64,000 nucleotides of DNA from Fimbriimonadaceae bacterium (GTDB taxonomy: Bacteria > Armatimonadota > UBA10988): positions 1 to 64,000 of the forward strand of contig JADZEX010000029.1 of NCBI GenBank assembly GCA_020850355.1. Direction: 5' to 3'. Of this stretch, positions 7,907 to 10,197 are shown in pieces. Numbering within the stretch: the first letter of the stretch is position 1; the number at the start of each line of letters is the position of its first letter. Under the pieces are notes generated by a model, which was not told the DNA's origin, made no database searches, and saw only the letters and a list, made by a program, of their open reading frames with translations. A program made the position numbers and the translations under genes.

Positions 7907-7944
7907 CCATTGTACAGCATTGATCCCGGGCTGCGAGGTGGGTG

Positions 7945-9087
7945 ATGGGTAAGCCGACTGGGACACTGACGGCTCTCCGACTCCTTGTCATGGTCGTGCT
8001 GGCGACCAGCGCCGTTGTGAAGCTCTGGTCCTTTGGCGAAGCCGCGGCCAAGTACGGCGTTGCACTAACCGCCATCGCAATCGCCTTCGAGGGAATCGTG
8101 GCGATCAGCCTCTGCCTTCGGCACCTGACACGTGCGGCCGGAGCTGGGGTGTTCCTGTTAGGCGTGGCCTTTCTCACCCAGACCGTGCCCCGCGCAGTAT
8201 CGGGTGCTGCCTCTGGGAGCTGCAGTTGCTTTGGTAGCCTATTGGCGATGTCAGCTCGACAGGCGGTCCTGCTTGATTGCATGCTAGTCATCTCTGGTGC
8301 GCTGCTGTACCGGTCAGACCACTTCCGCCAGTCCGACGGTCGCTTGCAGGCTCAGCCGCTCAGCTCGCTGCAGCCAGCGACCATCACCAGGGCAGTAGGT
8401 TGGAGCCTGGCTTGGCTGGCGCTGATGGCCTGTCTGTACCGTATCGGTCTGGCGTCCGACCAGCACCAAGGTCGCGGCCCGCAGCCGAGCCCGGCCCTGG
8501 CGGCGGAGGTGGGAGCAGGTCTGCCCGAGGTCACGGTCCGGACGACCGACGGCGCTGTTCGTTCGCTGCATCCAAGTGACGGTCGTTGGTGGCTGCTCCT
8601 GCTGCTCACTCGGCGCTGCCGGGCGTGCACCAGACTGGCTCAAGATGTCGCTGCTGTGGTCGAGCGCTGGCCGCCCTGGCTGGCGGTCGCAGTGGTGGCG
8701 CGGGAGAGCCCGGAGCGTTGGGTACAGCAGATCGGCCCGAGAATCGACGTGTTCACCGACCCGGCTGGCGTGGCCTGGCGCCTGGTGGCTGGAGAGACAG
8801 CCGCCGCACCGGCCTATGTGCTGGTCTCGCCGGACGGGGTGGTCCGCCATGCAGGCTCCAAGTACCTTCCAGGACGCAATGGCCTCGTCGCCGATTTGGA
8901 GGCGTGGCTGGCGGACGCGCCGAGCGGTGCGGCGGCTGGGCCGCTGCCGCCGTTGTGGATCGGTCGGCTGGCCGTCGATTGCCCCGTCTTCGCCGACCGA
9001 CCGGACCGACTCCTCGCTCCCGACCAGACCGCACCTGTGATCCTGTGCTGGGCAACCCTGGTTGCCAGCCCGCCGCCTGGGCCATAG
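7945..9087 (+). CDS. MauE-like membrane domain fused to thioredoxin-like domain
   Basis: A 380-aa membrane protein. Residues 1-160 form about four transmembrane segments like the MauE/DoxX family, including the C93-S94-C95-F96-G97 signature typical of MauE. A further transmembrane segment near residue 155-170 leads to a C-terminal thioredoxin-like domain with a C225-R-A-C228 redox motif and later VLVSPDGVVRHAG as in TlpA-like proteins. MauE is known from methylamine dehydrogenase maturation, where it supports disulfide formation. A fusion with thioredoxin suggests electron transfer across the membrane to make or repair disulfides. ATG 7945 follows GAGG by six bases; GTG 7942 is an alternative start. 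A strong promoter precedes it, and the next gene (57 bp on) is a cysteine-containing prepilin fusion, a possible client. Confidence 0.8.
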   Translation: MGKPTGTLTALRLLVMVVLATSAVVKLWSFGEAAAKYGVALTAIAIAFEGIVAISLCLRHLTRAAGAGVFLLGVAFLTQTVPRAVSGAASGSCSCFGSLLAMSARQAVLLDCMLVISGALLYRSDHFRQSDGRLQAQPLSSLQPATITRAVGWSLAWLALMACLYRIGLASDQHQGRGPQPSPALAAEVGAGLPEVTVRTTDGAVRSLHPSDGRWWLLLLLTRRCRACTRLAQDVAAVVERWPPWLAVAVVARESPERWVQQIGPRIDVFTDPAGVAWRLVAGETAAAPAYVLVSPDGVVRHAGSKYLPGRNGLVADLEAWLADAPSGAAAGPLPPLWIGRLAVDCPVFADRPDRLLAPDQTAPVILCWATLVASPPPGP

Positions 9088-9144
9088 GAGCCAGCGTCAG
9101 GTAGTGCTTCCTGGGAGGGGGGCGCTCTGCTCGGAGATCGCACC

Positions 9145-10197
9145 ATGGTGACAACCAACTCGTGGCTGACACTCACAGGACTCCGCCTCGGCGTCGGCGC
9201 TCTGGCGGGTCTCTTGACGGGGCTCACCCTCGGCACGGCAACCTATGCGCTGGGTCTCTTCTCGGTCTTCGCGGTGAGTGCCGCGGCGCGAATCACCGCA
9301 GTCGTTGCGCTGGTCTTGGTGCTGCCCAGTGTCGCCTTGCGGCTGAAGCCCTGGCAGGCCGCGGTCGCTTGGCCGCTGGTCGACCTGCCCTGGCTGGTGG
9401 CTTACGTCGCCCGGCCGGTGGTGTGGGAGCAACCGGACTACCTCTGGTCGCTGGCCAAGATGCTGCCGGCCCATGTCATCGACTTCGGGCTGGCCGGTTT
9501 CCTGACAATGTTGGCGCTCGGTCGGCTCGGATTGCTCCGGGCGTGTCGCACCGAGGGGTCCGGTCGGCGCCGCGCGGCGGGCTATGTGCGTGCCACCGCC
9601 GGCTTCACGTTGGTCGAGTTGTTGGTGGCACTAGCCATTGTGGGCCTGCTCACAGCCACCGTCCTGCCGGTCTTCAGTGCTGCGCGCAAGAAAGCCAACC
9701 AGACTGCCTGCGTCAGCAATCTTCGTCAGATTGGTGCGGCCTGGATGATCTATGTGGCGGACCATGATGACTCCCCGCCCCCGGCACTCTGCCGCGTGCA
9801 CCCGCGCTACTGCGCCGATGACCGGGTGTTGCTCTGCCCGGCGGATGCAGCGTGGCCACACGGCTGGGCTGGGCAATACACTCGGACGGTGGTCGGCAAC
9901 CCGATCATTCCCGACATCCCGATCAGCTACCGCGACTGGTACCGTCCAACCAGACGCACGCTTCGCTGGTTGCGCAGCCTGCCTGGCCGACCCGCCATTG
10001 CTAGTTGCGGACTGCACGGCGACCTGGTGGCGCCGACCGGCGGCCTCGGAAGCCCGCCGATCTTCCATGGGCTGGTGCTGCGTCTGGCGCTCGATGGTAG
10101 TGTCTACGCCTACCAGTTCCGGCCGACCGGCGGTCTGTACGACGCGCCGCTGACCGTCCTGACGGGCTTGCCCTACGACACCCCCGTCCCGCGCTGA
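9145..10197 (+). CDS. Polytopic membrane domain fused to a prepilin-type domain
   Basis: A 350-aa protein with an unusual order. Residues 1-135 contain about four hydrophobic segments. A basic linker (RTEGSGRRRAAGYVRATA) follows, then a full class III prepilin signal: G153 before FTLVE (Glu158 at mature position 5), a hydrophobic helix and the pseudopilin-like KKANQTACVSNLRQIG. The rest is a periplasmic-type domain with six or so cysteines (for example LCRVHPRYC and LLCPAD) and an H-X8-DG motif. GGAG eight bases before ATG 9145 supports the long form, but a GTG directly before RATAGF could start a normal prepilin. It probably shares the operon of the MauE-thioredoxin gene. An even number of helices would keep the linker in the cytoplasm, where prepilin peptidase cuts. 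Confidence 0.75.
   Translation: MVTTNSWLTLTGLRLGVGALAGLLTGLTLGTATYALGLFSVFAVSAAARITAVVALVLVLPSVALRLKPWQAAVAWPLVDLPWLVAYVARPVVWEQPDYLWSLAKMLPAHVIDFGLAGFLTMLALGRLGLLRACRTEGSGRRRAAGYVRATAGFTLVELLVALAIVGLLTATVLPVFSAARKKANQTACVSNLRQIGAAWMIYVADHDDSPPPALCRVHPRYCADDRVLLCPADAAWPHGWAGQYTRTVVGNPIIPDIPISYRDWYRPTRRTLRWLRSLPGRPAIASCGLHGDLVAPTGGLGSPPIFHGLVLRLALDGSVYAYQFRPTGGLYDAPLTVLTGLPYDTPVPR

Follow-up and report, generated by a model that had tools for sequence, protein, structure and literature searches.

The open reading frame (ORF) at 9145 to 10197 of the window (the whole 64,000-nucleotide stretch analysed here, from a Fimbriimonadaceae bacterium) carries a prepilin signal behind a polytopic membrane domain, and this raises the question of whether a single gene encodes here what are two proteins elsewhere. 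In the present study, we compared the two parts of the ORF with known protein families, with relatives in the same phylum and with the genes that surround those relatives. The ORF is probably the fused form of two neighbouring genes from a conserved cassette: the first encodes a small membrane protein of three to four helices and the second a short pseudopilin-like prepilin. The product would be cut by prepilin peptidase between the two parts.

Structure of the reading frame

The ORF lies on the plus strand, starts with ATG, encodes 350 amino acids and has no internal stop. A Shine-Dalgarno-like GGAG (9133 to 9136, plus strand) is located 8 nt ahead of the ATG. The first-pass annotation had described a ribosome binding site from which one open frame runs into a prepilin leader, and this was confirmed: the frame of the membrane domain has no stop before 10195. 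The ribosome site was also found at the long start only, since inspection of the sequence ahead of the internal GTG at 9586 revealed no AGGAGG-like site.

The N-terminal membrane domain (residues 1 to 147; 9145 to 9585, plus strand) ends in a basic linker (residues 126 to 147). On the Kyte-Doolittle scale, hydrophobic segments above 1.6 were found ahead of the motif at residues 41-59 and 107-125, and weaker segments above 1.2 at residues 15-33 and 71-89. Of the four helices originally proposed, two are thus strong and the other two weak, and four is the likely number. The linker proved as strongly basic as had been stated, with seven K or R and one D or E between residues 126 and 153. The loops of the domain carry 1, 0, 2 and 2 K or R, followed by the seven of the linker. 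These charges fit a four-helix domain with both ends inside, and by the positive-inside rule the linker would face the cytoplasm.

The prepilin leader (V148 to G153, VRATAG; 9586 to 9603, plus strand) begins with a GTG codon at the position of the start codon in the separate relatives. The predicted prepilin-peptidase site falls between the codons of G153 and F154 (9601 to 9606, plus strand). The predicted mature short prepilin, with its stop codon (9604 to 10197, plus strand), consists of a hydrophobic helix with E158 and a soluble domain in which Cys, SY, HG and R.DGS positions are conserved. Translation confirmed the positions of V148 (GTG 9586), G153, F154 and E158, so that the leader residues are as first annotated, and N_methyl (PF07963) matches residues 150-173 above its cut-off (E 6e-6, 26 bits vs 21.2). 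The match of the protein to TIGR02532 is also above the cut-off.

Whether the upstream part is coding or open by chance was assessed by codon scores trained on three ORFs of the window. Frame +0 scored 0.15 over 9145-9585 and 0.09 over 9586-10194, and the other five frames scored -0.10 or lower in both intervals. Over the 22 codons ahead of GTG 9586 (9520-9585), every frame had a negative score (-0.20 in frame +0 and -0.11 in the best minus-strand frame), and thus the junction itself has no codon support. The genome has 71% GC, and 13 of its 71 prepilin-motif ORFs, this one counted, have at least 150 open codons upstream; an open frame by itself therefore says little. When hydrophobic segments were defined as 19 residues with a mean of 1.6 or more, at least two such segments were present in the upstream stretch of the ORF of the window and of none of the other 70. 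The same genome has 72 N_methyl matches, most of them with near-identical helices (24 residues).

Relatives of the prepilin and their neighbouring genes

The prepilin half resembles type IV pilins and type II secretion pseudopilins in the GFTLVE motif, that is, a G/F pair followed by a hydrophobic helix with Glu at +5, and in the basic residues before the cut. It differs from them in that the motif is located at residue 153 behind a polytopic domain and not at the N-terminus: a short hydrophilic leader (MRATAG, 6 aa) results only from the GTG start, and 153 residues precede the cut if the ATG at 9145 is used. The soluble domain reached the cut-off of no curated pilin model. A weak similarity to the DUF1559/SBP_bac_10 prepilins (PF07596) directly behind the helix (E 0.0026) was below the cut-off (18.3 bits vs 23.3), and the subfamily of the window has a Cys, SY, HG and R.DGS pattern of its own. 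The Verru_Chthon cassette pseudopilins TIGR02596 and TIGR02599 were matched weakly and in the helix only (E 0.03-0.05), far below their cut-offs (13.7 of 70 and 13.4 of 256.5 bits, respectively). Solved pilins matched a profile of the prepilin in the N-terminal part only, and three structure rows of quinoprotein glucose dehydrogenase at E 0.048 were taken as chance.

A paralogue of the prepilin is encoded on another contig (C29) of the same genome (E 7.8e-30, 43% identity in a single-sequence match). We built a subfamily profile from eight relatives and ran it over 291 genomes of the phylum, the Armatimonadota. The protein of the window, itself one of the eight rows, matched it at E 2.6e-70 over positions 3-203 of 215. 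Prepilins in 289 of the 291 genomes matched the profile, mostly through the helix, and a subset matched over the full length. In a single-protein scan, the prepilin of locus L031 had relatives at 84-87% identity in bacterium HR16, listed by NCBI as unclassified Bacteria, and in two further MAG records.

Distinct members of the subfamily were drawn from among the matches listed, part of which were fetched, and their total is thus at least 45. ORFs below 114 bits were excluded and loci that shared the same 60-aa core were merged, which gave 46 rows; one of these, L108, duplicates the first L142 gene in truncated form, and 45 members from 32 genomes (manual tally) were counted. Neighbours were classified by a hydropathy rule on six-frame ORFs and not by annotation, an upstream partner being a polytopic ORF of less than 260 aa that ends -25 to +110 nt from the prepilin start. 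By this rule, a separate small polytopic ORF lies directly upstream in 29 of the 45 members among the matches listed, and its overlap with the prepilin gene is exactly 4 nt in 12 of these 29; the junction in genome G007 (L029) also reads as a stop/start overlap. A polytopic ORF was found downstream only in nine members (ten rows with L108), some of which are tandem arrays of prepilin, membrane protein and prepilin (e.g., L033/L168). Genome G038 and the closest paralogue have the polytopic gene downstream and not upstream, the C29 locus reading MauE-type gene, Cys-rich gene, prepilin and a separate 135-aa membrane ORF. No polytopic neighbour was found in six members, one of which (L034) has just 507 bases upstream. 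Only in the window, one of the 45 members among the matches listed, are both parts in one frame, and among the subfamily members examined it alone has an in-frame N-terminal extension with two or more hydrophobic segments. As a control, the upstream rule was applied to ordinary prepilins, and it was satisfied by none of the 69 in the genome of the window and by none of the 17 taken from other genomes (six and three of these loci, respectively, have less than 800 bases upstream). In the tandem array of L033 (30-1459), the frame of the second prepilin breaks soon behind the helix, and the remaining pilin part is in another frame, joined to the downstream gene.

According to the first-pass annotation, homologues with separate genes and a stop between the domains would count against its reading. 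Such genes are present in 29 of the 45 members, but they do not overturn the single frame in the window, and the first-pass interpretation is supported in part. The separate genes of the relatives indicate that the window holds a fusion of cassette neighbours in one genome and not the architecture of the family.

By position and hydropathy, the window also has a small polytopic protein beside the prepilin, fused in frame. The hhalign probability between the N-terminal domain and the separate partners was 0.1-0.2%, and in a leave-one-out test 25 of the 39 partners (L108 included) were also under 5% against all others, so that the similarity test has little power. No link between the domain and the separate partners was found by phmmer. 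The sequences of the separate partners diverge very fast. Since no similarity is detectable, the equivalence of the domain to the partners rests on position, size and hydropathy. MauE proteins (PF07291) have about four helices and a size like that of the domain, and a MauE-type gene is the upstream neighbour. The domain, however, has no Pfam match at E<=1. It has no NCBIfam match either. The homologue search with the N-terminal domain alone, as advised in the first-pass annotation, gave four weak matches besides itself in the 291 genomes (E 5e-4 to 9e-3), which were taken as chance; the prepilin motif is absent from their fetched stretches. The protein of the window had no relative in the genome contigs collection. 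A structure model of the 350-aa protein, made without an alignment, was too poor to be used (mean pLDDT 46).

Alternatives to a fusion

One alternative explanation is that the pilin is initiated separately at GTG 9586, the long product from ATG 9145 being minor or unprocessed. This GTG corresponds to the start position of the relatives, in which the two genes are usually separate and closely spaced, and it gives a leader of normal length. However, the GTG has no Shine-Dalgarno-like site, the frame of the membrane domain is not closed before 10195, and by our estimate the GC-richness of the gene makes a chance GTG close to the leader fairly likely; we therefore regard separate initiation as unlikely. 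An assembly or sequencing error, with two genes and a stop in the linker in the true genome, would also explain why the fusion was found in one genome only. The genome is a draft of 117 contigs, the relatives have two genes, and the codon scores are below zero in every frame just where the parts join. Nevertheless, frame +0 is the best over the whole of 9145-9585 and again beyond 9586, and because no plus-strand frame has a stop from 9506 to 9631, a simple indel would not restore the usual 4-nt overlap. We thus consider such an error to be quite improbable.

The upstream part could also be an unrelated membrane domain, or a frame that is merely open, in which case the pilin alone matters. The lack of similarity between the N-terminal domain and the partners agrees with this, as do the 12 other motif ORFs, of 70, with at least 150 open codons upstream. 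In contrast, upstream stretches with at least two hydrophobic segments are absent from all of these 70, and the codon signal and the ribosome site favour a real N-terminal protein, which makes this explanation very improbable. The preferred reading, a fusion of two cassette genes, has several points against it: the lack of similarity between the N-terminal domain and the partners, the downstream position of the polytopic gene in the closest paralogue and in G038, the absence of a Cys-rich gene from the locus of the window, its occurrence in one genome, the ambiguous codon scores at 9520-9585 and a leader outside the reported length range.

Predicted processing and the wider cassette

According to a review (PMC4471445), prepilin leaders have 6-26 aa and are cleaved on the cytoplasmic side, and the polytopic leader of 153 residues is outside that range. 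The genome of the window has two Peptidase_A24 genes, one of which corresponds to a PilD-like ORF (288 aa) next to a T2SSF-type protein. It also has eight T2SSF matches, so that genes for both the peptidase and the assembly platform are present. Cleavage of the fused product into two proteins by prepilin peptidase, as first suggested, is thus plausible from the sequence. The four-helix part would insert with both the N and C ends in the cytoplasm, the basic linker would stay inside, and the pilin helix would insert normally. A PilD-type peptidase could then cut between G153 and F154. The fused ORF probably yields two proteins in this way, the membrane partner and the mature pilin, in a one-to-one ratio. 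Coupled translation would have much the same effect in the relatives, where the genes are separate, lie close together and in many cases overlap by 4 nt at the stop and start codons. The fused pair suggests that the membrane protein and the pilin-like protein act together, and the former would most likely be a dedicated partner of the pilin in docking or assembly. If the cleavage occurs, the substrates of prepilin peptidase would include entire membrane domains in addition to short leaders.

The fusion draws attention to a membrane partner of a pilin-like protein, one that evolves fast and would have escaped sequence comparison alone, and also to a compact cassette centred on a conserved Cys-rich protein. 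The cassette as a whole may be of greater interest than the fusion itself. The Cys-rich protein is encoded upstream of the membrane protein/prepilin pair; its members share a cysteine framework and, as judged by eye, many have a signal-peptide-like start, so they are probably exported. A profile of the Cys-rich protein matched 26 of 44 loci, 19 of which had supplied profile rows, and 24 of the 291 genomes. Two ECF-like sigma factors that match Pfam Sigma70_r4_2 served as queries, and ORFs resembling them were present in 14 of the 44 loci. Gene sets with a sigma or MauE-type gene, a Cys-rich gene, a small membrane protein and a short prepilin were observed at L026 (1259-4229), L029 (1790-3388) and L030 (433-2798), and the Cys-rich and membrane proteins of such sets that were tested had no family model. 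At E<=1, Pfam contained no match to the four Cys-rich proteins searched, and none of the three compared with NCBIfam came close to a cut-off. Weak matches of the Cys-rich profile to solved structures of the polymeric immunoglobulin receptor (E 0.67 and worse) were rejected. Titles and abstract openings found in a literature search contained nothing on such a cassette or on a prepilin signal behind a polytopic domain, and this conserved cassette is apparently undescribed.

The locus of the window has neither a sigma factor nor, by the profile, a Cys-rich gene, and the sole Cys-rich copy found in its genome is that of C29. Its upstream gene (7942 to 9087, plus strand) encodes, according to Pfam, a MauE-like membrane domain and an AhpC/TSA-like (thioredoxin-fold) domain, the latter below the cut-off. 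The C29 cassette is also preceded by a MauE-domain gene, and the two proteins have no mutual phmmer match at E 1e-4. The wider cassette would probably display or export the Cys-rich protein as its cargo, and disulfide chemistry in this genome may be supplied by the MauE/thioredoxin-fold neighbour. We tentatively suggest, as a possibility that falls short of being probable, that prepilin peptidase serves here as a polyprotein processor, an internal class III signal being cut to give a membrane partner and a pseudopilin, and that the fusion reveals the partner in an undescribed phylum-wide cassette of sigma factor, Cys-rich exported protein, membrane partner and pseudopilin.

A second possible fusion was observed in genome G200, where an ECF-like sigma factor and a Cys-rich protein share one frame of 369 codons (L150, 814-1920, plus strand). 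A similar ORF with a truncated Cys-rich part is present at L145 (3444-4442, minus strand).
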